From Bacteroidales bacterium UBA1199 (lineage in GTDB: Bacteria > Bacteroidota > Bacteroidia > Bacteroidales > UBA932), in the NCBI GenBank assembly GCA_002309795.1, contig DBXZ01000046.1:17164-57077 (forward strand): a DNA stretch of 39,914 bases, in the 5' to 3' direction. The stretch's first letter is position 1; each line of letters opens with the position of its first letter. Below the pieces are notes generated by a model that made no database searches, was not told where the DNA came from, and saw only the letters and a list, made by a program, of their open reading frames with translations. Positions 3,412 through 22,063 of the stretch are shown piece after piece. Made by a program: the position numbers and the translations under genes.

Positions 3412-3954
3412 CTACTGCTCGCGGATAATGTCCATACCCAGACGGATAGCCTCTTCATTCACCGGAATCAGGTGATGATGGCGCTCCGGAAGGGTTTTGC
3501 GGAGAGCTTTGAGCACGCTTTCGATGGAAACGATGGGGTGAACCTTCAGCAGACCGCCCAGCACGATCATGTTGAAAACCTTGATCATGTTCTTCTCGGC
3601 AGCCGTATCCATCGCATCGATGCGATAGACGTGGATATCCTTACGAGTCGGCGGGTTGTTGATGCCGTTGCCGTCGTAGATAAGGGTTCCGCCGGGTTTG
3701 ACCTTCGGTTCGAACTTATCCAGCGAGGGCTGGTTGAGCACGATCACCGAGTCGTAGGAGCTGAGGATCGGCGAAGAAACCGGTTCGTCGCTGACGATGA
3801 CCGTCACGTTGGCGGTACCGCCGCGCTGTTCCGGACCGTAAGCCGGCATCCAGGTCACTTCCTTGTCTTCCATCAGGCCGGAATAGGCAAGAATCTTGCC
3901 CATCGAGAGGACACCCTGTCCTCCGAAACCGGAAATAATGATTTCGTGTGTCAT
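3412..3954 (-). CDS. vorC: 2-oxoacid:ferredoxin oxidoreductase, gamma subunit
   Basis: 180 residues. The gamma (POR_gamma) domain carries the family signature GFGGQGV at residues 9-15, then YGPEQRGGTANVTVIVS. It is the CoA-binding subunit of four-subunit 2-oxoacid:ferredoxin oxidoreductases, which convert a 2-oxoacid, CoA and oxidised ferredoxin to acyl-CoA, CO2 and reduced ferredoxin. It is the last gene of the operon, 9 bases after vorA. Linkage to a branched-chain aminotransferase and an acid kinase favours ketoisovalerate-type substrates over 2-oxoglutarate; sequence alone does not separate VOR from KOR. Subunit letters vary between species. Confidence 0.88.
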   Translation of the reverse strand: MTHEIIISGFGGQGVLSMGKILAYSGLMEDKEVTWMPAYGPEQRGGTANVTVIVSDEPVSSPILSSYDSVIVLNQPSLDKFEPKVKPGGTLIYDGNGINNPPTRKDIHVYRIDAMDTAAEKNMIKVFNMIVLGGLLKVHPIVSIESVLKALRKTLPERHHHLIPVNEEAIRLGMDIIREQ

Positions 3955-3963
3955 AATTCTTGC

Positions 3964-4734
3964 TTATTGTTGTCCGTTGTCCTTGAGGTCCCCGAGCTGG
4001 TAATACGGGAACATGTTCTCTTCCATCCACTTGTTGGCCTTTTCAGGGGTCATCTTCCAGTTGGTGTTGCACGTAGAGACGATTTCCACCAGGTTGGAGC
4101 CTTTGCCCTGCATCGAATACTCGAATGCCTTGCGGATGGCTTTCTTAGCCTTGAGGATTGCACCCACGCTCTGTACGCTCTGACGCGTAACGTAGCAGGT
4201 ACCTTCGAGCGTTGCAGCGATTTCCGTCATCTTCAAAGGATAACCGTGAAGTTTCGGGTCGCGGCCGTACGGGCACGTAACGGTCTTCATGCCGATCAGC
4301 GTGGTCGGAGCCATCTGACCGCCGGTCATACCGTAAATCGCGTTGTTTACGAAGATGATGGTGATGTTCTCACCACGGTTGAGTGCGTGGATGGTTTCAG
4401 CGGTACCGATGCAGGCCATATCGCCGTCACCCTGGTAGGTGAAGACGAGACGGTCGGGCCAGAGGCGCTTGATAGCGGTAGCCACAGCCGGAGCGCGGCC
4501 GTGAGCGGCTTCTTCCCAGTCGATATCGATATAGTTGTATGCGAAGACGGCGCAACCCACCGGGGAGACGCCTACGGTCTTCTCCTGCATGCCCATCTCG
4601 GCAATCACTTCGGACACCAGTTTGTGGACGACGCCGTGGCTGCAGCCCGGGCAGTAGTGCATCGGGGTGTCGTTCAGAAGTTCCGGTTTCTTGTAAACCA
4701 GGTTTTCGGGCTGTATGATTTGTTCTTTCGTCAT
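3964..4734 (-). CDS. vorA: 2-oxoacid:ferredoxin oxidoreductase, beta (TPP) subunit
   Basis: 256 residues. The CPGCSHG motif is at 28-34. The thiamine-diphosphate binding motif runs from GDGD at 102-105 to the asparagine pair at 130-131, with the usual spacing of nearly 30 residues. It holds the TPP and decarboxylates the 2-oxoacid, with the alpha subunit supplying the rest of the active site. Length and motifs fit KorB/VorA proteins. The gene lies 13 bases downstream of vorB and 9 bases upstream of vorC, so the subunits are made from one message. Confidence 0.9.
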   Translation of the reverse strand: MTKEQIIQPENLVYKKPELLNDTPMHYCPGCSHGVVHKLVSEVIAEMGMQEKTVGVSPVGCAVFAYNYIDIDWEEAAHGRAPAVATAIKRLWPDRLVFTYQGDGDMACIGTAETIHALNRGENITIIFVNNAIYGMTGGQMAPTTLIGMKTVTCPYGRDPKLHGYPLKMTEIAATLEGTCYVTRQSVQSVGAILKAKKAIRKAFEYSMQGKGSNLVEIVSTCNTNWKMTPEKANKWMEENMFPYYQLGDLKDNGQQ

Positions 4735-4747
4735 AAGGCAATGCAGA

Positions 4748-5830
4748 TTAACGGGTCATTTTCTTGAGTTCTTCTACAACCTCTTCAGGTTCGGGGATGA
4801 TACCGCCCAGACGGCCGTACCACTTGACGGGAACCTTGCATTCTACGGCAAGACGGATGTCTTCCACCATCTGGCCGGCGTTGATTTCGAGCGAGAGGAT
4901 ACCCTTCATCCGGCTGCCCAACTCAGCGATACGCTTGCTCGGGAACGGCCAGAGGGTGATAGGACGGAGCAGGCCTACCTTGATGCCTTGTTCGCGCGCG
5001 ATGGCAATCACCTTCTTGGAGATGCGGGCAGCGCTACCGAAAGCAACAATCAGGTATTCAGCGTCTTCGGTCATATACTCTTCGTAACGGACCTCCGTCT
5101 TCTCAATCTCGCGATACTTCGCCTGGATACGGAGGTTGATGACCTCCATAGCCTCGGAGCGGAGCTCGAGCGAGGTGATGATATTGGGCTTGCGGCCCTT
5201 CTTGCGGCCGTTTGCTGCCCAGGGGCACTGCTTGATGACCTCTTCTTCGGTACGGCGGGGCTTGAACGGAGGAAGGACGACCTTCTCCATCATCTGGCCG
5301 ATAGCACCGTCGGAGAGAATCATAGCCGGGTTGCGATACTTGAATGCGAGCTCGAAAGCGAGATCTACGAAATCTGCCATCTCCTGCACGGAAGCCGGAG
5401 CGAGCGTAATGAGACGATAGTCACCGTGACCGCCGCCTTTGACCGTCTGGAAATAGTCGGCCTGGCTCGGCTGGATGGTACCCAGACCGGGGCCGCCGCG
5501 GGATACGTTCACGACGAGGGCCGGAAGTTCGGCACCTGCCAGATAGGAGATACCCTCCTGCATCAGGCTGACGCCCGGGCTGGAGGAGGAGGTCATGACG
5601 CGTTTGCCGGTAGCGGCACCGCCATAGACCATGTTGATGGAAGAGACTTCGCTCTCTGCCTGGACGACGACCATACCGGTCGTTTCCCAGGGTTTCTCAG
5701 CTGCGAGGGTTTCGAGGACCTCGGACTGCGGGGTGATAGGATAGCCGAAGTATCCGTCGCAACCGCAACGGATGGCGGCGTGGGCAATGGCCTCATTGCC
5801 TTTCATCAGGGTAATTTCTTTCTCTGCCAT
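4748..5830 (-). CDS. vorB: 2-oxoacid:ferredoxin oxidoreductase, alpha subunit (VorB)
   Basis: 360 residues. The pyrimidine-binding POR_N domain includes GYFGYPITPQSEV and the conserved Glu region VVVQAESEVSSINM, then TSSSSPGVSLM. The C-terminal half is a transketolase-C-like domain (LIVAFGSAARISKKV, LLRPITLWPFP). It reads as the subunit generally annotated 3-methyl-2-oxobutanoate dehydrogenase VorB in Bacteroidales. It starts 3 bases after the ferredoxin subunit stops. No internal Fe-S motif is present, in keeping with a separate ferredoxin subunit. Confidence 0.9.
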   Translation of the reverse strand: MAEKEITLMKGNEAIAHAAIRCGCDGYFGYPITPQSEVLETLAAEKPWETTGMVVVQAESEVSSINMVYGGAATGKRVMTSSSSPGVSLMQEGISYLAGAELPALVVNVSRGGPGLGTIQPSQADYFQTVKGGGHGDYRLITLAPASVQEMADFVDLAFELAFKYRNPAMILSDGAIGQMMEKVVLPPFKPRRTEEEVIKQCPWAANGRKKGRKPNIITSLELRSEAMEVINLRIQAKYREIEKTEVRYEEYMTEDAEYLIVAFGSAARISKKVIAIAREQGIKVGLLRPITLWPFPSKRIAELGSRMKGILSLEINAGQMVEDIRLAVECKVPVKWYGRLGGIIPEPEEVVEELKKMTR

Positions 5831-5833
5831 AGA

Positions 5834-6064
5834 TCAGTCCTCCTTTTTGCGGTAAACGGTGATACATCCGTCGGGGCAGACGATGGCGCACGATGCACAG
5901 CCCGTGCAGGTGTCTTCCAGGACGGCTTCAGCGTAGTTGTAGCCCTTCTGGTTCACGCTCTTCTCCGTTAGGTTCAGGACGTGAAGCGGGCAGGCGACCA
6001 CGCAGAGACGGCATCCTTTGCAACGTTCGATGTCAACGACAGTTGCGCCTTTCATTTTAGCCAT
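5834..6064 (-). CDS. vorD: 2-oxoacid:ferredoxin oxidoreductase, delta subunit (2x[4Fe-4S])
   Basis: 76 residues with two classical CxxCxxCxxxCP motifs: Cys15, 18, 21, 25 and Cys53, 56, 59, 63. This is a bacterial-type two-cluster ferredoxin module that takes electrons from the TPP site to external ferredoxin. Position directly before vorB and full motif conservation make it the delta subunit rather than a free ferredoxin. Confidence 0.92.
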   Translation of the reverse strand: MAKMKGATVVDIERCKGCRLCVVACPLHVLNLTEKSVNQKGYNYAEAVLEDTCTGCASCAIVCPDGCITVYRKKED

Positions 6065-6088
6065 ATCGGTGGTTGTGTTATTAGTTGG

Positions 6089-6358
6089 TTATTGGTTGTA
6101 CATATCCTTGTTATAGAAAGCCAGGATCTCGTTCGCGATCTCCAGGGCCTGCTTGGCAGGGCTTTCCGGGTTCAGGGCGATGGCCTCAAGGTAATTGTTG
6201 ATGGCCATCTGCCACGATCCCTTCTTGCGCCAGGCGTTGCCCTGAAGATAGAAGAGCGTGTCGGTCATGACGCCTCCTCCCTGCCGGAATTCCTCCAGAA
6301 GCGCGATGGCTTCGTCGGCCCGGCTCGCATCGAGCAGATCCTTGACCTTCCGTTCCAT
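6089..6358 (-). CDS. Small tetratricopeptide-repeat protein
   Basis: 89 residues. ERKVKDLLDASRADEAIALLEE is followed by a canonical TPR, with FYLQGNAWRKKGSWQMAINNYLEAIALNPES at about 41-71 and a capping helix. It has no signal peptide, so it is probably cytoplasmic. The gene sits between ilvE (3 bases away) and vorD (24 bases), so it is co-expressed with the oxidoreductase. I recall a similar TPR gene beside vor/kor operons in other Bacteroidales. A role in assembly or stabilisation of the complex is an inference. Confidence 0.75.
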   Translation of the reverse strand: MERKVKDLLDASRADEAIALLEEFRQGGGVMTDTLFYLQGNAWRKKGSWQMAINNYLEAIALNPESPAKQALEIANEILAFYNKDMYNQ

Positions 6359-6361
6359 CGG

Positions 6362-7408
6362 TTACTTGCGGTCTACGAAGAGGCACCAGTTGTAGGTATC
6401 TTCTTCCAAACCCTTCTGGATGCCGACGATACGGTTGTAAAGCTTCTCGCTGTACGGACCGCAGTGGTCGGGAGAACCGATCTTGTAGGTCTTGAGGACC
6501 TTGTCGCCTTCGAGCGTCTCTTTGTCGTCGATGCTGCAGATCGGGGTGATGACCACAGCCGTACCGCAGGAGTTGACCTCCTCGAAGGTTGCGAGTTCTT
6601 CAACCATAATCTTGCGGCGGACCACCTTCAGGCCAAACTCTTCAGCAACCGTGCGGAGGCTCTTGTTGGTGATGGAGGGCAGTACGCTGTCAGAATCCGG
6701 CGTGATGTACATGCCGTCTTTGATGGCGAAGAAGTTGGAAGAACCGAATTCCTCGATATGCGTATGGGTTGCGGTGTCCAGGAAGAGCAGTTCGCGATAG
6801 CCCAGACCGTGAGCCAGGTTGTAAGCGTGGAGCGACTGTGCGTAGTTTGCACCGAGCTTGTAACCGCCGGAGCCGTGGGTGGCTGCGCGGTCATAGTTGC
6901 GGGAAATGACTGCCGTGCCGGGCACGAGGCTCTTTGCGCCGGAGTAGGTACCCACGCCGGAGCACATCACTGCGAAGAGAACGTCTTTCGCGGAGTTGAT
7001 ACCGAGCTGCGGGTTGATACCGATCAGGATCGGACGCAGGTAGAGCGAAGCGCCGCTTGCATAGGGCGGAATGTGCTCCCAGTTCTCCTGGACGCAACGG
7101 ACGCAAGCCTCGATGAACATCTCCACGGAGGGAGCTGCCATGTCAAGGTACCTGGCGCTGCTGATCATGCGCTTTGCATTCTCGTCCGGGCGGAAGAGGC
7201 GGACCTTGCCGTCAGCGCCTTCATAAGCCTTCAGTCCTTCGAAGCAGGACGGAGCGTAGTGGAAAATGCCTGCGAAGCAGTTCAGCTCCAGGTTGAAGTT
7301 GTCCGTAGCGGTAATCGGCGACCATTTGCCGTCGATGTACTTGCTGTAAACGATAGCGTTCGTCGGGTAGTAAGCGAACTTACGTTTCGAATAATCGATT
7401 TCTGCCAT
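6362..7408 (-). CDS. ilvE: Branched-chain amino acid aminotransferase
   Basis: 348 residues, fold-type IV PLP aminotransferase of the longer type (about 340-360 aa). The Schiff-base lysine is Lys184 in GSGGYKLGANYA. LRPILIG, ELLFLD and the TAVVITPI loop are further conserved parts. It interconverts valine, leucine and isoleucine with their 2-oxoacids using 2-oxoglutarate/glutamate. Position between an acid kinase and a VOR-type oxidoreductase suggests that its 2-oxoacid products feed, or come from, the oxidoreductase. Confidence 0.92.
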   Translation of the reverse strand: MAEIDYSKRKFAYYPTNAIVYSKYIDGKWSPITATDNFNLELNCFAGIFHYAPSCFEGLKAYEGADGKVRLFRPDENAKRMISSARYLDMAAPSVEMFIEACVRCVQENWEHIPPYASGASLYLRPILIGINPQLGINSAKDVLFAVMCSGVGTYSGAKSLVPGTAVISRNYDRAATHGSGGYKLGANYAQSLHAYNLAHGLGYRELLFLDTATHTHIEEFGSSNFFAIKDGMYITPDSDSVLPSITNKSLRTVAEEFGLKVVRRKIMVEELATFEEVNSCGTAVVITPICSIDDKETLEGDKVLKTYKIGSPDHCGPYSEKLYNRIVGIQKGLEEDTYNWCLFVDRK

Positions 7409-7452
7409 GTCTGAAAATGAGTTATTTGATTTAAAAAGTATCTGAAAAAAGA

Positions 7453-8619
7453 TTAGTCTTCAATCACGTTGTCCTTGTTGTAGGTGTGGACCTTGGCTGC
7501 ACCTGCGAGGATCAGGTAGCCGTTCTCTGCCAATGCCTCAAGCTCGTCTTCGCCCGGATAGATCTTGACCGGAGCGACCCAGCCGACCCGTTCTGCGATG
7601 CCGCCGGTCACGGTCTTGCTGTGGGCGATGCCGCCGGTGATGAGGATGGCGTCCACCTTTCCGTTCACCACGGTTGCCAGCGCTGCGATATATTTACTGA
7701 TATTCAGCACGAAAGCCTTCATGAAGAGGACGTATTCCTCTTTGCCTTCCGCCGCGCGCTGCTCCACGACACGCATGTCGTTGGTACCGAACCATGCCAC
7801 CGCACCGCCGCGGCCGACCAGTTTCTTCTTGATCTCCTCTTTGGTGTATTTACCGCTGAAGCACATGTCTACCAGCGGGAAAGGAGGGCAACCGCCGGCA
7901 CGTTCCGGGGTGATGGGGCCGTCGCCGCCCAGCGCGTTGGTCGTATCGATGATACGGCCCTTGCTGTGGAGCGAAACGGAGACGCCGCCGCCCATGTGGC
8001 ACACGATGGCCGTGGTCTCTTCCGCCTTTTTGCCGGTCTCACGCAGGTAACGGCGCACGATCGCGCGCGAATTGAGCGTATGGAGGACCGAGGTGCGCTG
8101 GAATTCGGGAACGCCGGTAATGCGGCATTCGGCGATCATTTCATCGGCCATCGGCGCGTCTGCGATAAAGGCTTCGCAAGGACGGAAGCGGGGTGCAATC
8201 CCCTTCTTGGCGCGCAGTGCGTTGACGCGGGCTGCAATCTCCTCTCCGATCAGGGCGCTCAGGTTGCAGGCGTGCTTGCCGTCGCGGCAGGAGACGAGGA
8301 CCTCCCTCATTTCTGCGTTCACGCTGTAGACGCCGGCCACACAGGGGACGAAAAGACCGCCGCGGGCCATGATCAGGTCGATGGAATCCAGTTCGATACC
8401 GGCCTCGTCAAGCGCAGAGAGGATTGCCTCTGCACGCATCTTGTCCTGCTGCATCACGTCGGAGAAGGCGGCGAGGTCTTCTGCGGCATGGTCCAGCTTC
8501 TTTACGAAAGCCGATTCGCCATCTTTGAAAAGTGCGAATTTGGTGGTTGTGGAACCCGTATTGATGACAAGGATGTTGCCTACAGGTGCCTTTCCGTTGA
8601 TATTGTCAATTGCGCTCAT
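7453..8619 (-). CDS. buk: Butyrate / branched-chain fatty acid kinase
   Basis: 388 residues, acetate-kinase/ASKHA fold. VINTGSTTTKFALF at about residues 18-31 is the phosphate-1 motif. CHMGGGVSVSLHSKGRIIDT and the C-terminal ITGGIAHSK are typical of butyrate kinase rather than acetate kinase. It transfers phosphate between ADP/ATP and (iso)butyryl, isovaleryl or 2-methylbutyryl phosphate. It is first in the operon, 44 bases before ilvE. The usual partner phosphotransbutyrylase (ptb) is not in the window. An 8-bp inverted repeat surrounds its start. Confidence 0.88.
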   Translation of the reverse strand: MSAIDNINGKAPVGNILVINTGSTTTKFALFKDGESAFVKKLDHAAEDLAAFSDVMQQDKMRAEAILSALDEAGIELDSIDLIMARGGLFVPCVAGVYSVNAEMREVLVSCRDGKHACNLSALIGEEIAARVNALRAKKGIAPRFRPCEAFIADAPMADEMIAECRITGVPEFQRTSVLHTLNSRAIVRRYLRETGKKAEETTAIVCHMGGGVSVSLHSKGRIIDTTNALGGDGPITPERAGGCPPFPLVDMCFSGKYTKEEIKKKLVGRGGAVAWFGTNDMRVVEQRAAEGKEEYVLFMKAFVLNISKYIAALATVVNGKVDAILITGGIAHSKTVTGGIAERVGWVAPVKIYPGEDELEALAENGYLILAGAAKVHTYNKDNVIED

Positions 8620-8742: not shown

Positions 8743-9576
8743 CTAGAGCCGTGCGGAAAGGTCCCTGTACACGGCACGCGAAACGGGGATGGAAATCCCG
8801 TCCGTATCCAGCTCAACGGTAATCAGGTCGTCGGGATCCTTCCGCAGCGCGACGATATGCGACAGGTTGACGAACCAGGAACGCTGGCAGCGGAAAAGGT
8901 TGTGCGGCTCCACCAGCGGAGCGATGGAATTCATCGTGGCGCGAAGCAGGTAATCCTTTACTTTTCCATTGTCAAGATAGTGGATCTTGACGTAGTTGTC
9001 TTCGGCGCGAATAAAGAGAATCGACTTGGCAGCCAGGACAATCCGCACCTGATTGTTGGAATCGGCAAAACGGATGTGATCTTTGGACGCCTCCGCTTCG
9101 TCCTCCTGATCCTTGGCGCCGATCAAGACGCAGATGACGGTAATGCCGAAATAGGGATAGACGAGGATCAGGAAACTGTATTGGAGACAGATGGCAACCT
9201 GTTGAAAATAAGGCGTGACAGCACCGCCCATCAGGCAGAGGTAGAGAGCCATGAAATAGGTCACCACAGAGATTTCGCCGAAACACCAGAAGCTGTACCC
9301 CAGCCAGTTTCTTTGAAGATGGCGGAAGAGCCCCCAGAAAAGCAGCCGGGTCAACAGAAGGGTTACCAGGATGATACACATGAGCATCGTGGTGTTGAAA
9401 TAGAAGAGTCCGCGGCCCATATCCAGCGCTTCACTCATCTCGAATGGCCGGTAAACCGCCACGACAAAGAAAAAGAAGTAAGCCGACAAGAGGATATACC
9501 ACAGCTGCGTACCGAACGACCCGAAGATTGCGGGCAGCGTTTTCAAGTTTGTGGCGGATTGCGTCTTTGCACTCAT
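8743..9576 (-). CDS. Membrane-bound LytTR-family transcriptional regulator
   Basis: 277 residues from the ATG at 9576. Four hydrophobic segments fill the N-terminal half (LWYILLSAYFFFF..., FYFNTTMLMCIILV..., ISVVTYFMALYLCLM, FILVYPYFGITVICVLIG). A LytTR DNA-binding domain follows (ILFIRAEDNYVKIHYLDNGK ... FRCQRSWFVNLSHIVAL). There is no receiver or kinase domain, so it resembles single-component membrane regulators of Bacteroidetes. The longer frame to 9606 is excluded because it would run into the -7 box at 9604-9611. It diverges from the split biosynthetic operon at 9699, which it may control. Confidence 0.88.
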   Translation of the reverse strand: MSAKTQSATNLKTLPAIFGSFGTQLWYILLSAYFFFFVVAVYRPFEMSEALDMGRGLFYFNTTMLMCIILVTLLLTRLLFWGLFRHLQRNWLGYSFWCFGEISVVTYFMALYLCLMGGAVTPYFQQVAICLQYSFLILVYPYFGITVICVLIGAKDQEDEAEASKDHIRFADSNNQVRIVLAAKSILFIRAEDNYVKIHYLDNGKVKDYLLRATMNSIAPLVEPHNLFRCQRSWFVNLSHIVALRKDPDDLITVELDTDGISIPVSRAVYRDLSARL

Positions 9577-9603
9577 TTCGTCCCAAAATTTAATATTTTG
9601 CCA

Positions 9604-9611
9604 CAAATATA
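9604..9611 (-). promoter_or_regulatory. -7 promoter box of the LytTR gene
   Basis: TATATTTG on the minus strand is an exact TAnnTTTG match 27 bases upstream of the chosen ATG. A TTTG lies 23 bases further upstream, slightly beyond the usual -33 spacing. Confidence 0.7.
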
Positions 9612-9672
9612 CGGTTTTTACGGAATTCTCACCCCAAATATCCCAGATTTCGCCACCGACCTATTAATAAAA

Positions 9673-9680
9673 TAACTTTG
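9673..9680 (+). promoter_or_regulatory. -7 promoter box of the condensation/ligase/ACP operon
   Basis: TAACTTTG is an exact TAnnTTTG match 18 bases before the ATG at 9699. It overlaps a TTG that could extend the frame to 9678, which argues against that earlier start. Confidence 0.7.
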
Positions 9681-9698
9681 CATCACATTTTAACAATA

Positions 9699-10550
9699 AT
9701 GATAAAATACCTTTTCATCATTCTGGCCATCAATTTCGCCGAACTTGACCGGGCCTTCCAGAAGACCGGTGACATTGCGGCGATCCGCACCCGGCTGGAG
9801 CAGACGCTTCCCGCTGCGGAGAATGATGCCGAGAAGGCGGAAGTCTATTGGCGCATTTCCCGCGCCTGCCTGCTGCAGGGCCAGGAGGCAACAACCAAAA
9901 AGGCAAAGCGCGAATTCTTTGCGGAAGGCATTCATTATGCTGAAGAGGCCATCAAAGCCGATCCGAACAATCCGCAGGGTTACCTCTGGCGCTGTACCAA
10001 CACCGGACGCGATGCGGAAACCCGCAAACTGATGGAACAGGCTGCGCTCGCTCCGAAGATGAGCGACGACCTGGCAACCGTCCTGGACAAGCTGGGCCGT
10101 ACGGACTGCTCCGAAGCCTGGCACACGCTTGCGGAAATCTGGATCCACCACCCGTTCAAGTCGAACGATGCAGCCATCAATTTCGGCAGGAAAGCGGCGC
10201 TGACCATTCCTGAAAACGAATTACGGCTCGTTACCCTCACCTTCCTCGCGCAAAACCTCTACAAGCGGAACTGGAGCGCTGCCCAGCGCCGCACCGCCGC
10301 TGCGTCCAATGCAAAGAAGTTTTTGTCAGCCCGGAAAAATATCGACAAATATGCCGCTTTCGACGGTGCTCCCAGGGATCTCCTTCGCGCTCCCTGGAAT
10401 GCAGAAGGCCTGGGCACCATCTCCGATCGTGAAGAGGCGCTTGCCATCCTTGAATATGCCATCGGGCGCTACCGCGCCTGCACCAGTCCTACCAAATTGG
10501 ACCAGGACGATTATAAACAATTATTAAGTCTCAAAGATCAATGGAAATGA
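9699..10550 (+). CDS. Helical-repeat (TPR-like) protein of unknown function
   Basis: 283 residues. A short hydrophobic N terminus (MIKYLFIILAINFAE) may be a signal or anchor, though it lacks a clear cleavage site. Then come paired amphipathic helices typical of TPR-like solenoids: KAEVYWRISRACLLQGQEA, FAEGIHYAEEAIKADPNNPQ, EAWHTLAEIWIHHP, DAAINFGRKAALTIPENE. The region resembles Bacteroidetes tetratricopeptide proteins without a named family. It is first in the operon, and its stop overlaps the start region of the condensation-domain gene. I cannot assign a biochemical role; scaffold or envelope partner of the following enzymes is a guess. Confidence 0.7.
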   Translation: MIKYLFIILAINFAELDRAFQKTGDIAAIRTRLEQTLPAAENDAEKAEVYWRISRACLLQGQEATTKKAKREFFAEGIHYAEEAIKADPNNPQGYLWRCTNTGRDAETRKLMEQAALAPKMSDDLATVLDKLGRTDCSEAWHTLAEIWIHHPFKSNDAAINFGRKAALTIPENELRLVTLTFLAQNLYKRNWSAAQRRTAAASNAKKFLSARKNIDKYAAFDGAPRDLLRAPWNAEGLGTISDREEALAILEYAIGRYRACTSPTKLDQDDYKQLLSLKDQWK

Positions 10551-11902
10551 ATTCCAACCCGACGCTCTACCATTTTACCTATTCCCAGGACGTCATTCGC
10601 CTTCAAAGCAAATATGCGCTCTTCAAGCGCGTGCTCAATATCCTGTTTTCCGTAACCTGCGACGAGGGTTTCGATGAGGCGCTCATGGAAAAGGCGCTCA
10701 ACCTGCTCTACGAACGCAACGACTGCCTCCGCCTCCGCTTTGTCAAGCAGGGCAAAGAGACCATGCAGTACTTCGAACCCGTCCGCACCGTGGGCTGTAT
10801 CCGTCGTGAAAAGTTCACGACCAGCGCACAGATGGAGCGCTTTTTCCGCTGCTTCCGCCGCAAACCCACCAACCTGGCCAAGGGTGACGCCCTGCGCGTA
10901 GTTTTCGCCGTCAATCCGGAAGGGAAACAGATGATTATCTTCAAGATCTGCCACTATGTAGCAGATACGTACGGAATCGGAATCCTCGTTAACGACCTTT
11001 TCGCCGTTTACAATGCCCTGCGCGACGGAAAGGAACTTCCTGAGGCTCCCGGCAGTTTTGAAGAGATTGTCCGCAAAGACAACGAGTATCGCAACGACGA
11101 GGCGGCTACGACGCGTGACAAGGAGTTCTTCCTCGACTACTACAAGAATCGTCACGCGCAGCACCCGGTCTACTGCGGCCCTCACGGCAACGGCAGCGAC
11201 CGCTGGCTCAAGCTCAAACGCAAGGGTAAATATTCCCTGCCCTACCTGATGGTCCGTTGTGACACAGAGGGTTACCAGTTTGTTATCCCCAGCGCAATCA
11301 CGGAAAAAGTGGTAAAATGGTGCACGGATCACGGTGTCTCCATGAACGCTTTCTTCTTCTTCAACTTCTCATTGGCCCTCTCGCTGATCAATGACCGCGA
11401 GACCCGCCTGGCGCCCGTGGAGATTCTCAACTGCCGCGGCACGGTCGCCGACCGCAAGGCCGCCGGCACCAAGGCGCAGGGCGTGTGTGTATGCACGGAG
11501 ATCGATTACGCCAAATCCTTCGCCGAAAACGTAGCCATACTCGCGCAGGAGCAGAACGAACTCTACCGGCATACCCGCCTGACCTATCTCGAAGGTGAGG
11601 CCTATCAGCACGAGGCGTGGAAACACTCCATGCTGGGAAGCGTGAACTGCGCCGGATTCTCCTTCATACCCTTCGCCGCTCCGGAAGGCATCAACCTGCA
11701 GATTCACAGCAACGGAAAGGGCGCACTGGTTACCTACGTCGCCATGATGCACAACCTGCGCACCAACGAAACCTTCGTCAACTACGACGTTCAGCGCCTG
11801 ATGATTACCCCCTGGCAGTTGATCGACTTCCAGAATGTCTACGTACGCACCATAGAAGCGGTGCTTGCAGACTCGGAATCTCCCCTTGAAAAACTCTTTT
11901 AA
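10541..11902 (+). CDS. Stand-alone condensation-domain acyltransferase (NRPS C-domain superfamily)
   Basis: 453 residues, about the size of one condensation domain and nothing else. The active-site HHxxxDG motif appears as CHYVADT at 137-143: the second (catalytic) His138 and Asp142 are kept, the first His is Cys and the Gly is Thr. The N-terminal half has the acceptor-like FDEALMEKALNLLYERNDCLRLRF segment seen in C domains and wax-ester/PapA acyltransferases. It probably joins an ACP-bound acyl chain to an amine or alcohol. Starts at 10541 and 10547 are both possible; the second overlaps the previous stop as ATGA. Ligase and ACP follow at once. Confidence 0.78.
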   Translation: MEMNSNPTLYHFTYSQDVIRLQSKYALFKRVLNILFSVTCDEGFDEALMEKALNLLYERNDCLRLRFVKQGKETMQYFEPVRTVGCIRREKFTTSAQMERFFRCFRRKPTNLAKGDALRVVFAVNPEGKQMIIFKICHYVADTYGIGILVNDLFAVYNALRDGKELPEAPGSFEEIVRKDNEYRNDEAATTRDKEFFLDYYKNRHAQHPVYCGPHGNGSDRWLKLKRKGKYSLPYLMVRCDTEGYQFVIPSAITEKVVKWCTDHGVSMNAFFFFNFSLALSLINDRETRLAPVEILNCRGTVADRKAAGTKAQGVCVCTEIDYAKSFAENVAILAQEQNELYRHTRLTYLEGEAYQHEAWKHSMLGSVNCAGFSFIPFAAPEGINLQIHSNGKGALVTYVAMMHNLRTNETFVNYDVQRLMITPWQLIDFQNVYVRTIEAVLADSESPLEKLF

Positions 11903-11914
11903 AAGAACCATACA

Positions 11915-13654
11915 GTGAATAAATATCGTACAGAACGCGAAAATCTCGGCTCGACTCTCCTGAAAGACGGTGACTACGGCAGCATCCGCGAGATGCTGGA
12001 GCGCATCAACCGCCTCATCCCCGGCAATCAGGTGTTGGCAGAACTGGACCAGGAAAAGAAAATCAAATACTATACGGCGCACGACGTTTACGAAGAGGTG
12101 ATGTGCCTCGGCGACGGCCTGATTGACGCCGGCCTGAAAGGCGGTCATATCGCCATCATTTCCGAAAACTGCTGCCGTTATGTCTTTGCTGACATCACCG
12201 TTTCGAGCGGCGTAGGCGTGGTCACCCCTATCGACTGCAACGCCCCGCTCCCGCTGATGGTCACGCTGCTGCAGAAATGCGAGGCGACGGCCGTCTTCTG
12301 CGGCGCCGGCTACCTGGACCTCGTCCGCGAGGCGCAGAAGAACTGCCCCCTGATCAAAACCGTCATCACGATGGACCGCAAGACCACCGGCGATCTGCAC
12401 TACGACGACCTCGTGGAACGCGGCCGTGCGCTCGCTTCCAAGAGCGTTTACCGTACGATTGACCTGGACCTGGACGCTCCCGCCAAGATTCTCTTTACCA
12501 GCGGCACGACCGGCGCCAACAAGGGCGTGGTCCTGACCAACCGCAACCTTGCTGCAAATATGATCAACTGCCTGGATGTCATTCAGGTAGAAGAGAACGA
12601 AGAGAACACTTCGATGAGTGTGCTTCCGATGCACCACGCTACGGAAATCAATACCCACATCATGGCGCGTATCGGAGCAGGCCGCCTGACCTACGTCAAT
12701 GACAACATGCGCAACATGATGACGAGCATCAAGATCTTCCAGCCCACGGTCATCACGATCGTCCCCATGATTGCCAATGCATTCTACAAGAACATCTGGG
12801 CGGCCGCCAAAAAAGCCGGCAAGGATGAAAAACTCCGCAAGGGCATCAAGCTCTGCAACCTGCTGCGAAAATTCGGCGTGGACAAAACGCACGATCTCTT
12901 CAAAGACGTCTATGCCCCCTTCGGCGGCAAGCTGAAGCTGATCGTATGCGGCGGTTCCATGCTTAACCCGGTAGTTATCAAGGGAATGAACGACCTTGGT
13001 ATCCGTATCCACAACGGCTACGGCATCACCGAATGCGGTCCGCTGATCTCCATGAATGCAGATACGCTGGACGAACACCTGAGCGTAGGCCCTGCCTGCC
13101 CGCAGCTGGAGGTTCGTCTGGATGGCGTGGACGAGGAAGGTGTCGGCGAACTCTGCGTCAAGGGCCCCAGCGTGGCCAAGGGGTACTACAACGACCCCGA
13201 CGCGACCGCAGCCGTATTCGGCGCCGACGGATTCTTCAATACGGGCGACAGCGCCCGCATCGACGCCAGGGGCCGCATTTTCCTCGTGGGCCGCAAGAAG
13301 AACACCATCGTCCTGCAGAACGGCAAGAACATCTGCCCGGAAGAGGTTGAAAACGTGCTGGAAACCGTGCTGGACTACGCCAAAGACATTGTGGTCTATC
13401 AGGCCGAACTCCGCAACGGAAATGCCGTCCGCGAGACGCTCTGCGCCGGTATCTTCATTGAAGATGAGGCACAGCGGAAAGACCGTGAAAAGATTGCCGC
13501 CGACATCCGTCGCGCCAACATGCAGTTGCCCGACTACAAACGTATTGAGTACGTCGAGCTCCCTGCTCAGGAATACGAAAAGACATCTACCCGCAAGATC
13601 CGCCGCACGCAGCTTCCCGCTACCTGCTCCGGTGAGGGTATTTCACTGATATAA
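11915..13654 (+). CDS. AMP-forming acyl-CoA/acyl-ACP ligase (ANL superfamily)
   Basis: 579 residues from a GTG at 11915; no ATG fits. Adenylate-forming motifs are complete: TSGTTG at 195-200 with Lys203, GYGITECG at 368-375, TGD at 443-445, and the catalytic C-terminal Lys561 in TSTRKIRR. It activates a carboxylic acid as acyl-AMP. The closest feel is long-chain fatty acyl-CoA synthetase/FAAL rather than an amino-acid A domain. With a dedicated ACP directly downstream, loading of that ACP is the likely second half-reaction. The gene lies 12 bases after the condensation-domain gene. Confidence 0.88.
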   Translation: MNKYRTERENLGSTLLKDGDYGSIREMLERINRLIPGNQVLAELDQEKKIKYYTAHDVYEEVMCLGDGLIDAGLKGGHIAIISENCCRYVFADITVSSGVGVVTPIDCNAPLPLMVTLLQKCEATAVFCGAGYLDLVREAQKNCPLIKTVITMDRKTTGDLHYDDLVERGRALASKSVYRTIDLDLDAPAKILFTSGTTGANKGVVLTNRNLAANMINCLDVIQVEENEENTSMSVLPMHHATEINTHIMARIGAGRLTYVNDNMRNMMTSIKIFQPTVITIVPMIANAFYKNIWAAAKKAGKDEKLRKGIKLCNLLRKFGVDKTHDLFKDVYAPFGGKLKLIVCGGSMLNPVVIKGMNDLGIRIHNGYGITECGPLISMNADTLDEHLSVGPACPQLEVRLDGVDEEGVGELCVKGPSVAKGYYNDPDATAAVFGADGFFNTGDSARIDARGRIFLVGRKKNTIVLQNGKNICPEEVENVLETVLDYAKDIVVYQAELRNGNAVRETLCAGIFIEDEAQRKDREKIAADIRRANMQLPDYKRIEYVELPAQEYEKTSTRKIRRTQLPATCSGEGISLI

Positions 13655-13666
13655 AACAAATTGAAA

Positions 13667-13912
13667 ATGGATATTAGAAAAGAACTGCTGGACATTATCC
13701 AGGATTACGTAGACTTTCCCGTTGGCGAGATCGACACGGCCTCTTCCTTCGCGGAATCCGCCGGACTCGACTCGTTCGTCTTTATCGAAATGGTGAGCGC
13801 GATCGAGGAGCACTTCGGAATTACCATTCCCAACGGCGACCTGATCGGCTTCCGGACCATCGACGATATCGTCTCGTACCTGAGCGGCCGTCTCTCCCTC
13901 GCGAGCGCATAG
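13667..13912 (+). CDS. Free acyl/peptidyl carrier protein
   Basis: 81 residues, acidic four-helix carrier. The phosphopantetheine attachment serine is Ser36 in GLDSFVFIEM. The canonical DSL is DSF here, a form common in biosynthetic carrier proteins outside fatty-acid synthesis. A TTG at 13661 would add two residues, but ATG at 13667 is preferred. It is last in the operon, 12 bases after the ligase, and presumably carries the acyl group made by the ligase and used by the condensation protein. No phosphopantetheinyl transferase is in the window. Confidence 0.92.
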   Translation: MDIRKELLDIIQDYVDFPVGEIDTASSFAESAGLDSFVFIEMVSAIEEHFGITIPNGDLIGFRTIDDIVSYLSGRLSLASA

Positions 13913-18462: not shown

Positions 18463-19386
18463 TTACTGACGGATACGGACGTCCATCTGCGGGAAGGCAA
18501 AGCCGAATCCCGCCTTGGGCAGTTCTGCGTAGAAGCGGTCGTTCATATCGAAGAAAGTTCCCCAATAATCTGCGGCATTCACCCAGCCGCGGACCGTCAG
18601 GACCACTTTACTCTCAGAGAACTCCATCACGGCTGCAAACGGGTCACCGGCACCGGCCGTCTTGGAGTCGAGAACACGCGCGTCGGAACGGAGGATTTCC
18701 ACCAGTTTGGCGCGGCATGCCTCCAGGTCGGTACCCGGCGCGATAGCCACGCTCCAGTCCACACGGCGGATGGGGTGCTTGGAGAAGTTGTTGATGTTGC
18801 CGCTGGAGAGCGGACCGTTGGGAATGATGACGGCGCGGTTGTCCGGCGTGGTGAGGTGGGTACTGACGATGGTCAGGTCGGTCACCGTACCCATATAACC
18901 CTGTGCTTCAATAAAATCGCCCACCTTAAAAGGCTTGAACGCAAGCAGCATGATGCCGCCCGCGAAGTTCTGCAGCGCACCGCTCATGGCCATGCCGATC
19001 GCCACGCCGCCGGCTGCCAGTACGGCCGCCAGCGAACTGGTATTGACGCCCAGCGTGCCTACCGTAATCACGATCAGCAGGATGGTCAGGACCACCGTGG
19101 TAAGGCTCTGGACGAAGCCGGCCAGCGCCCTGTCGGTCTTTCTCTTTTCGAAAATCTTCTTGAGAAGTTTCTTGACGCGGCGGATGAGCCAGGAGCCCAC
19201 GATGTAGATGGCCAGCGCAGCCAGGACCTTGAGGCCAAAACTGATGGCACTCTGGCCGAGCTGATGGAGCATTCCGCCGGGATCCTGTACGGCCTCATGG
19301 GCCAATTCGACGACCGCTGTCTTGATGGAATCCGGATTGACCACCGCTTCGGTGCCTTCCGGAAGAGCTTGTAAGAATGATAGCAT
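18463..19386 (-). CDS. mscS: Small-conductance mechanosensitive channel, MscS family
   Basis: 307 residues. Three membrane helices are followed by the pore-lining glycine/alanine helix AAVLAAGGVAIGMAMSGALQNFAGG. The beta domain has the PFKVGDFIEAQGYMGTV signature, then the cytoplasmic cage ending FPQMDVRIRQ. It opens on membrane tension and releases osmolytes. It is last of a three-gene operon, 31 bases after the larger channel, with no promoter box between. Its TAA abuts the mutY TAA with no base between. Confidence 0.93.
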   Translation of the reverse strand: MLSFLQALPEGTEAVVNPDSIKTAVVELAHEAVQDPGGMLHQLGQSAISFGLKVLAALAIYIVGSWLIRRVKKLLKKIFEKRKTDRALAGFVQSLTTVVLTILLIVITVGTLGVNTSSLAAVLAAGGVAIGMAMSGALQNFAGGIMLLAFKPFKVGDFIEAQGYMGTVTDLTIVSTHLTTPDNRAVIIPNGPLSSGNINNFSKHPIRRVDWSVAIAPGTDLEACRAKLVEILRSDARVLDSKTAGAGDPFAAVMEFSESKVVLTVRGWVNAADYWGTFFDMNDRFYAELPKAGFGFAFPQMDVRIRQ

Positions 19387-19417
19387 AGTATGGGGTTTGG
19401 ATTTGTACCGTTATTCT

Positions 19418-22063
19418 TTATTTTCCTTCGATAATATGAATATCCCGCTGCGGGAACGGAATCGTTATGCCGCTGCGGTTCAGTGCGTCGTAGATAATCT
19501 CTTTGGCGCGGGCGGTGTAACCGAAGCGTTCGGAGACCAGCACATACTGCTTGACGGCGATATCCACTGAGCTCTCGCCGAAGTTCTCGAAGGTCACGTT
19601 GATTCCACGCTTGGGATCTACGATCTCGCGGTTGAAGGCATCGCGGGTGCAGAGCGTCTTCATCGCCTCCGTGAGCACCTCGCGAACCTTTTCGACATCA
19701 GTACCGTAGCTTACCCCCACGATAATCTTCAGGAACTCGTAGGCGTTGTTGCGCGTCAGGTTCTTGAAGTTCTTGTTGAAGAGTGCGGTATTGAGGAACG
19801 ACATCACGGCGCCCTCGATCGTCTCAATCTGGGTGCTCTGGTAGCTGATGGAGGTCACCTTGCCGCGGACGCCGTCGCATTCCACCCAGTCACCCACGCG
19901 CAGGCGGCCGGACATCAGCTGGATACCGTAGATGAAGTTGTTCAGGATATCCTTCATGGCGAGACCGAGACCGGTAGCCAGACCGGCTGCGATAATCGAC
20001 ACGGCGCCCATCGGAATGCGCAGCAGCAGGATGGTGAGGATCACGTAGGAACCCCAGACCAGGATGCTGATGACGCTCTCGGAGAGGCTGAGGTTGATCT
20101 CGTTGGCCTCCACGTGATCCTTTCCGCTGGTACGGCGGATATGATTGAACATCAAATCTTTATAGATGAATCGCAACGCGTAGTTCAGGTAACGGAACAC
20201 GAAGAACAGCGAGGATGCCAGCACGATCATATAGAACGAGAGCTTGAAGATTTCGTTGCCGTCGGCGTTCTTGAAGTCGAAGAAGGTCGTATAGAAGATC
20301 TGGTGACTGATTTCGGTGAGGTCGAATACATCGAGCGCCATATAGACGCAGAGCGGAATCGAGCAGATGGCGGCCACCGGCACCAGTACCTGCGAAATCA
20401 GGTCGTACCACCAGGTGACGCGGATCGTGTCGCCGCGACGTTCCTTGGCTTCCGTGGTAGGGTGTGCCTTGCGATACTCGGCCACCTTGCGGTCCAGATA
20501 GCGTACTTTAAAGTGGTCAAGCAATACGATGACAGCCATAATGGCCTCCGTCATCGCCATTTGGAAGAGCCACCAGATGGCGATCTGGATGCCCAGCAAG
20601 ACGTAACCGCACCACGACAGGATGGCAACACCAATCAGGATGGCCAGCGTAATCCATCCGATGATAATATCGGAATCCGCCTTGAATCTGCGGTTGTGCA
20701 GGCAGAGAATCAACTGCCAGATGGCTGCAATGATGATCATCGGCGGGAAGATGATATTCATCATCCGGTTGGGCATGAAGACCACGCGGAAGATGATGAT
20801 CAGGAATCCCAGCAGGATGGTGGGCTGATAGAGTTTCAGACGGGGCGAGGTCTCCTCCCCGCTGTGGCGCAGCAGGACGCTGCCCAGGATGGCGACCATA
20901 ATCCAGGCGAGCACGATCAGCAACGAGGATGCCACCTGGAAGAAGTTGTTGTCGACGACCTTGGGAATAATGTACTGGCACAGGCCGAAAATGATGGTTC
21001 CGCACAGCAGCGTGATGCACGGCAGCCGGTGCTTGAAGACGTCGGACAGCATGGCCTTGATCTTCGGACGCAGGATGGCGGCCAGCAGGAGACTGAGCAG
21101 CGTGGCCAGCAGCAGAATCCCGAACTGGGTGCCCAGGAAACCGAAAACCATGGGACCGCGCCATTCGCTGGCCGCCAGCGTCTGGTCGAACGATTTGGTG
21201 CGGCTGTATTTGTTGACGCAGTCGGCATAGGCCCGTTTCCAGCTGCTGGAGAAACGTTTGATAATCCGGTCGTAGTGACCGGTACCTTTGATGAACATCC
21301 GCCGCTGGATCACCTTGTAGCGGTCCTGCGCGTAGTCGTACGACTCCTTGAGCCGCTGGCTGGCATCCTGGTAGTGTTCGTTGTCCTTGATGATGCGATT
21401 CTTGGACTCCTGGTACATCTTGAGCAGCGTCGCTGCGTAGTGGATGCAGGAATCGCGGTCGGCCTGCCCTTGTTCGTCCAGGAAGAACGCCGACAGGTTG
21501 CCGTTCGCGTTCAGGCTGTCCAGCAGCATCCGGCGGCCGTTGACCATCCGGTCGCGTGTGCCGCGGCGCGGAGTGGCGGGCATGGCATAGCTGCGAATGC
21601 TGTCATTCTTATATTTCAAGCTGTCTGGAATTTCCTTGACGTCCCGCAACTCCGGCGGGAGACGGCGCAACGATTCGATCAGGCGGGAGTAGCGGTCGAT
21701 CTCCAGGTCGAGCGACGTGACGATTTCGTCGTAAGGCATTTTTCGCTCGTTGAAGGCTTCATACTGCTTGGTGACCTCCTTGAGCGCATAAGTCATGTCG
21801 AAGGTGTAATCCTGGTTCTGGGAATAGAGCATCAGCGCCAGCTCGTTGCATTTCTTGAGCGTCTTGACCATCACGCCGTGCTGCGAACGGTTGCGGCTGT
21901 CGATCCGGTTCTGGCGCGTCGCGCGCTTCTCTGCCTCCTGGCTCAGTTCGTAACGGAGCACGGAGAGTGTCTTTCCCAGGTCTTTTTCGTTGAATACGGC
22001 CCCTGCGGGAAGGGAAACGAGCAGGGCGGCCGCTACGAGGAGAATTCTGCGGAATTTATTCAT
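19418..22063 (-). CDS. Large MscS-superfamily mechanosensitive channel (MscM/MscK-like)
   Basis: 881 residues. A signal peptide (ILLVAAALLVSLPAGA) precedes a periplasmic helical domain of about 280 residues, rich in Arg/Lys/Glu and likely coiled. About ten membrane helices follow between 310 and 700. The C-terminal MscS core contains IIAAGLATGLGLAMKDILNNFIYG, RVGDWVECDGVRGKV and the cage ending ITIPFPQRDIHI. The architecture is like E. coli MscK/YjeP but shorter. Co-transcription with a small MscS suggests a two-tier osmotic safety system. The gene begins 14 bases after the deaminase stop. Confidence 0.9.
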   Translation of the reverse strand: MNKFRRILLVAAALLVSLPAGAVFNEKDLGKTLSVLRYELSQEAEKRATRQNRIDSRNRSQHGVMVKTLKKCNELALMLYSQNQDYTFDMTYALKEVTKQYEAFNERKMPYDEIVTSLDLEIDRYSRLIESLRRLPPELRDVKEIPDSLKYKNDSIRSYAMPATPRRGTRDRMVNGRRMLLDSLNANGNLSAFFLDEQGQADRDSCIHYAATLLKMYQESKNRIIKDNEHYQDASQRLKESYDYAQDRYKVIQRRMFIKGTGHYDRIIKRFSSSWKRAYADCVNKYSRTKSFDQTLAASEWRGPMVFGFLGTQFGILLLATLLSLLLAAILRPKIKAMLSDVFKHRLPCITLLCGTIIFGLCQYIIPKVVDNNFFQVASSLLIVLAWIMVAILGSVLLRHSGEETSPRLKLYQPTILLGFLIIIFRVVFMPNRMMNIIFPPMIIIAAIWQLILCLHNRRFKADSDIIIGWITLAILIGVAILSWCGYVLLGIQIAIWWLFQMAMTEAIMAVIVLLDHFKVRYLDRKVAEYRKAHPTTEAKERRGDTIRVTWWYDLISQVLVPVAAICSIPLCVYMALDVFDLTEISHQIFYTTFFDFKNADGNEIFKLSFYMIVLASSLFFVFRYLNYALRFIYKDLMFNHIRRTSGKDHVEANEINLSLSESVISILVWGSYVILTILLLRIPMGAVSIIAAGLATGLGLAMKDILNNFIYGIQLMSGRLRVGDWVECDGVRGKVTSISYQSTQIETIEGAVMSFLNTALFNKNFKNLTRNNAYEFLKIIVGVSYGTDVEKVREVLTEAMKTLCTRDAFNREIVDPKRGINVTFENFGESSVDIAVKQYVLVSERFGYTARAKEIIYDALNRSGITIPFPQRDIHIIEGK

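Follow-up and report, generated by a model that had tools for sequence, protein, structure and literature searches.

What does a pathway make when its repeat protein, lone condensation domain, acyl-AMP ligase and acyl carrier protein (ACP) are each encoded as a separate gene? This question is raised by a 39,914-nucleotide stretch of DNA from Bacteroidales bacterium UBA1199 (hereafter the window, whose numbering is used for coordinates), in which four such genes are tightly packed on the plus strand. They encode a repeat protein R (9699-10550), a free-standing condensation protein C with the motif CHYVADT (10541-11902), an acyl-AMP ligase A (11915-13654; PF00501, 1.1e-54) and a free ACP, or T, with its serine in DSF (13667-13912; PF00550, 1.3e-14), and are spaced by a 10-base overlap and then two gaps of 12 bases. 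A TAnnTTTG -7 promoter box (TAACTTTG, 9673-9680, plus strand) stands 26 bases before the first ATG, that of R. An earlier description made from the letters alone (the sequence-only reading) had seen four adjacent genes behind one promoter, which these coordinates and the box bear out. We consider that the operon probably makes a fatty acid amide (FAA) by means of A, ACP and C, with R binding the acyl product in the envelope.

C is a single domain of 453 amino acids, for which PF00668 is the sole Pfam match (1.1e-24). It has neither the fusion or adjacency to A and peptidyl carrier protein (PCP) domains nor the HHxxxDG motif of a canonical modular nonribosomal peptide synthetase (NRPS). A fragment of a modular NRPS was considered and rejected, since C is a single domain and is conserved as such. 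Its best match in the PDB is 12kh ('Condensation Domain Protein', 3.9e-19, residues 29-346; next best 1.9e-10). A separate PDB search with profile A1 is not independent for 12kh, as 10 of the 76 profile rows are OaaC-side proteins. We equate 12kh with OaaC from Coprococcus eutactus because its length, its motif (DHRLMDS) and its topic match a preprint (PMC13142362); the PDB table names no organism. In that preprint, OaaA loads an ACP and OaaC then joins the ACP-bound fatty acids to free amines. PapA and wax-ester synthases were absent among the best 50 fold-search rows for C, a ranking that leaves room for them further down. In public records, several OaaC-like proteins bear the name 'chromosome condensation protein', carried over by mistake from 'condensation domain'.

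The relationship between C and OaaC was examined in two trees, both rooted on canonical domains (an assumed root) and composed without labelled starter domains and without OaaC-side proteins below ~55% identity to OaaC. Tree 1 comprised 28 Bacteroidales C proteins, 20 OaaC-side proteins and 32 Bacteroidota NRPS C domains (33 were chosen, of which 32 could be cut out), and tree 2 comprised 12 Bacteroidales C proteins, 11 OaaC-side proteins and 26 canonical rows, with six long-branch canonical rows removed that had been kept in tree 1. Both placed the Bacteroidales C and OaaC-side proteins as sister clades, together apart from the Bacteroidota NRPS C domains. Support for the Bacteroidales C, OaaC-side and canonical groups was 98, 96 and 100 in tree 1 (Shimodaira-Hasegawa-like approximate likelihood ratio test, SH-aLRT) and 100/99, 100/98 and 100/100 in tree 2 (bootstrap/SH-aLRT). 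The intervening branches of tree 1 are long (2.29 and 1.19), and L046 remains a very long branch in tree 2. Independently of the trees, the two sister clades have a segment in common: the stretch equivalent to residues 193-248 of C is 55-56 residues long in 20/20 Bacteroidales C proteins and 56 in 20/20 OaaC-side proteins, compared with 32-40 in the 32 canonical domains, which amounts to ~18 extra residues. According to the preprint, OaaC exceeds modular C domains by an insertion of ~17 residues that contains a helix (PMC13142362), and the structure model of C (predicted local distance difference test score 92.8) has a helix at 220-227, within the shared segment. Judged from trees and alignments, C descends from the same ancestor as the OaaC-containing side of the C family and has the insertion in common with it.

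The sequence-only reading had called CHYVADT degenerate, with the second His and the Asp kept in a single domain. Motifs were counted in 119 aligned rows each from the best 120 of 235 C relatives and the best 120 of 860 OaaC-side hits. Among the C relatives, the His (His139 in C) and the Asp were retained in 119/119 rows, position 1 was Ser in 115, Cys in 2 (one being the window's) and Asn in 2, and the last position (7) was Thr in 112, Ser in 5 and Gln in 2. OaaC-side rows carried D-H-R-L in 119, the Asp in 118 and a final Ser in 119. For comparison, PMC13142362 gives the FAA C-domain motif as (D/H)HxxxDS, with His2 and Asp6 above 99% and position 7 variable; position 1 is S/C/N in the C relatives as against D/H. 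Because none of the 119 rows lacks the second His or the Asp, the motif is better described as a conserved variant than as degenerate, so that the single domain and its two retained residues stand and the implied decay does not. Active-site decay of C was likewise rejected on the invariance of this pair. On alignment, SHxxADT is a lineage signature that is neither decayed nor the same as the OaaC motif.

Co-conservation beyond its own genome was the point on which the sequence-only reading had staked itself beforehand, and it was found. C was detected in 19/398 genomes of the family of G001 and in 5/40 genomes of the genus of G003, and an order-wide sample of 393 genomes held one true member (G001), with four further matches that were partial (~1e-6). 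In the neighbourhood DNA around the 19 C genes from the family of G001 (the 19 loci), R-C-A-ACP occurred in the same order and on the same strand in 18/19 beyond the window. The set is therefore co-conserved and patchy in distribution. One of three relatives (Bacteroidia or Bacteroidales metagenome-assembled genomes) came from goat rumen. A hunt for recurring flanking families in the 19 loci found none besides LytTR in more than 4/19 and no recurring glycosyltransferase, export or lipid gene, with an open reading frame pick that caught LytTR in only 7 of its 12 occurrences.

The earlier statement that A and ACP keep their catalytic residues is borne out: adenylate-forming motifs hold across 19 ligases, with the last-motif lysine in 19/19, and the ACP serine is present in 20/20 (18 DSF, 2 NSF). 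For A, the top NCBIfam models describe fatty-acid--CoA ligases (best, a long-chain fatty-acid--CoA ligase subfamily), all below their cut-offs. By analogy with OaaA, and considering its neighbourhood, A may load the adjacent ACP.

R, whose link to the operon and likeness to lipid-binding tetratricopeptide repeat (TPR) proteins had been overlooked before, tracks the operon in the genus of G003, where it occurs in 5/5 carriers and 1/35 non-carriers (at a contig end). Its N-terminus is signal-peptide-like, with a hydrophobicity score of at least 2.0 in 19/19 (lowest 2.32) and in 0/19 for A; this score is supportive only, because 12/20 C and 5/20 ACP proteins also reach it. The TPR domain of PTPIP51/RMDN3, a eukaryotic protein of the mitochondrial outer membrane, binds and transfers phospholipid, and its structure (7cc7) is the best sequence-profile match of R. 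It also ranks first in the VIA-align fold search, leading by 1.4 Z units at ~14% identity. R, by contrast with this eukaryotic protein, is bacterial and has a signal-like N-terminus. The top nine fold rows further include a bacterial sterol transporter, TPAT/TatT proteins and the haemophore HusA. The newer family version PF21033.5 is precomputed for 62/64 R relatives. R is described here as an RMD1-3/PTPIP51-like TPR protein, predicted to be secreted, which may carry the product rather than the precursor. The sterol transporter 7t1s, which we equate with BstC of PMC10942540, and the TatT/TPAT proteins (3u64, 4di3, 8g52) are of a different sequence family than R. BstC binds sterols, and the excerpted text of PMC10942540 describes no C-A-ACP cassette with it.

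A LytTR regulator with four hydrophobic segments (hydrophobic 19-mers) is encoded divergently from the operon (8743-9606, minus strand; PF04397, 2.7e-16, 60 bits against a cut-off of 22.6), its true start probably being the ATG that ends at 9576. Such a gene lies divergently beside the operon in 12/19 loci, which had also escaped the earlier description. In the genus survey, a LytTR relative was present in 15/40 genomes; relatives of at least 55% identity occurred only in carriers, the others being more distant, and two carriers had only distant relatives. Two TTYGYCMCA-like elements 20 bases apart form a candidate operator (9576-9612, plus strand), the second overlapping the TAnnTTTG box directed toward the LytTR gene. 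Exact 20-base pairs of TTTCGTCCCA-like elements were found in 7/13 regions with LytTR (window included) and in 0/7 without; this pattern was noticed post hoc and derived from the very sequences in which it was counted. The conserved CAAATATA adjoining the elements is TATATTTG on the opposite strand, the TAnnTTTG box for the LytTR gene, which accounts for some of the conservation. The LytTR protein may control the operon; given the distant relatives outside carriers and the post hoc pattern, this is only a lead. In locus L043 (oriented 3667-4551), a divergent AraC-like frame, recognised by eye, occupies the usual place of LytTR, and the regulator may thus be exchangeable.

Under the reading we favour, A would turn a fatty acid into acyl-AMP and charge the neighbouring ACP with it, and C would transfer the ACP-bound acyl group to a small amine that diffuses freely. 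The predicted secreted protein R would then bind the acyl amide in the envelope, beyond the inner membrane. The loading and condensation steps would follow a reconstituted relative, and the R step is new and the least certain. Several observations weigh against this reading. C is only ~20% identical to OaaC and has neither the Asp nor the Ser of DHxxxDS; its acceptor may therefore be a different one, even an alcohol. Foldseek superposes R poorly on 7cc7 (template modelling scores 0.47/0.57, root-mean-square deviation 11.9), Pfam RMD1-3 (PF21033) has no match in the window's R, and R of 3/5 relatives matches it below the cut-off (22.6, 18.3 and 12.3 bits against 26.7). At L042, C and ACP are adjoined by neither R nor A. 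LytTR is absent beside the operon in 7/19 loci, and its distant relatives are present in genomes that lack the operon. A bolder version, in which a Clostridial-type C-A-ACP set and a secreted PTPIP51-like R form one module that makes the amide and carries it across the envelope, with a membrane LytTR sensor in control, is one we put forward tentatively and lean against.

The amine acceptor is the step most open to a different account. Activation and loading could proceed unchanged with an alcohol or an envelope component as the acceptor, yielding an acyl-ester or membrane aminolipid retained in the envelope. The motif, which differs from the OaaC type in nearly all rows (SHxxADT as against DHRLxDS), and the branch of 2.29 leave room for such a shift in acceptor chemistry, and a secreted R fits an envelope destination. 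Yet the insertion and the trees link C to proteins that acylate free amines, and the flanks of the 19 loci hold no recurring glycosyltransferase, export or lipid gene (largest non-LytTR family 4/19); we regard this account as quite unlikely. A related view keeps the amide and changes its purpose, with the operon capturing toxic free fatty acids and R acting ahead of the ligase as a periplasmic fatty-acid scavenger rather than an exporter. R does resemble lipid binders, and according to PMC13060934 fatty-acid toxicity in Blautia wexlerae is eased by amines, and acyl amine synthesis is tied to survival. The same source finds free fatty acids rarely toxic to Bacteroides, among others, and a secreted R would need a transporter to pass the fatty acid to the cytoplasmic A, of which none recurs in the flanks, so detoxification seems unlikely.

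R might also be a protein-protein scaffold for another envelope function with no lipid connection, as a TPR fold alone would allow little distinction; we think this rather doubtful, considering that 7cc7 leads the fold ranking by its 1.4 Z, that lipid- and ligand-binding proteins (sterol transporter, TPAT/TatT, HusA) are among the top nine rows and that the sequence profile independently ranks 7cc7 first. Finally, A might make only acyl-CoA for general fatty-acid use while the cell's fatty acid synthase charges the ACP. The fatty-acid--CoA ligase models point this way, as do published starter C domains, which use acyl-CoA according to PMC13142362. Against this, A adjoins ACP in 18/19 loci, and in the nearest known system loading is the work of OaaA and OaaACP (PMC13142362), which leaves the acyl-CoA account very improbable.

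Returning to the FAA reading, the CTA operon, or FAA pathway, of gut Clostridia reportedly goes back to work by Chang in 2021. In PMC13142362 and PMC13060934, its free-standing C/T/A proteins make FAAs and the acyl-AMP ligase is the 'A' protein. The sequence-only reading held that the operon does not fit standard biosynthetic cluster classes, which this resemblance does not support; its ligase, own ACP and acyl-transferring C protein, with a small nucleophile as the predicted acceptor, survive. The idea of an exotic pathway outside known classes was dropped when the match to OaaC emerged. As in the CTA system, a free-standing PF00668 C, an acyl-AMP ligase and an ACP stand side by side (window and 18/19 loci), and the C proteins are related, with a common insertion and the His and Asp kept. 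The Bacteroidales operon differs in its order, R-C-A-ACP (C-A-ACP in the window and 18/19), as against C-T-A in the isolates of PMC13060934, in its motif (SHxxADT versus DHRLxDS), in the low identity of C and in adding the secreted TPR protein R and often a LytTR gene to the published Clostridial set. In Rhodobacteria, a dedicated ACP and acyl-CoA synthetase serve one acyltransferase, as here, but the acceptor enzyme, encoded beside them, is a serine palmitoyltransferase rather than a C domain (PMC9386255). The C-A-ACP chemistry is of a known kind; what is new is the phylum, the gene order, the motif and the added envelope protein. Among open-licence PMC papers, searched by titles and abstract starts, we found none on a Bacteroidales C-A-ACP operon.

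Host G-protein-coupled receptors are targets of FAAs from gut Clostridia (PMC13142362), which also affect gut hormone release (PMC13060934). With an identity cut-off of 70%, PMC13060934 reports CTA homologues in Clostridia alone, and the Bacteroidales operon lay outside the reach of that survey because ~20% identity in C falls short of the cut-off. If the operon does make such amides, gut and rumen surveys of FAA activity have missed a group. Should the bolder version with R as carrier also hold, Bacteroidales would represent a second phylum of FAA makers with the first FAA cassette that has a dedicated carrier. R offers a direct handle on how such oily products exit a Gram-negative cell.

The promoter arrangement recurs as well. 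The TAnnTTTG -7 box, which is of the Bacteroidota promoter type, lies at most 40 bases from the first gene in 15/20 upstream regions (window and 19 loci), against a background of 0.21 per kb per strand across the window at large. A cation:proton antiporter gene lies downstream of the operon. On the minus strand at 3412-8619, consecutive genes for a three-part 2-oxoacid:ferredoxin oxidoreductase (POR, TPP_enzyme_C, POR_N), a class IV aminotransferase and an acetate/butyrate-kinase-like protein resemble a route from branched amino acids to short branched acids. In L029 and L030, too, the aminotransferase and kinase adjoin the operon, which makes branched acids a possible substrate of A. Two adjacent MscS-type mechanosensitive channel genes of unequal size (307 versus 881 amino acids) lie at 18463-22063 on the minus strand. 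Elsewhere, an HD-type hydrolase-like frame, recognised by eye, follows C and ACP at L042 (G712:C2, 4500-8600, minus strand), and the same genome also has a separate 3465-amino-acid frame with three C domains. Weak PF00668 matches in single frames of ~408-475 amino acids in other Bacteroidota (G995, G955, G897, G889, G807 and G1092) are perhaps further free-standing C-like proteins.
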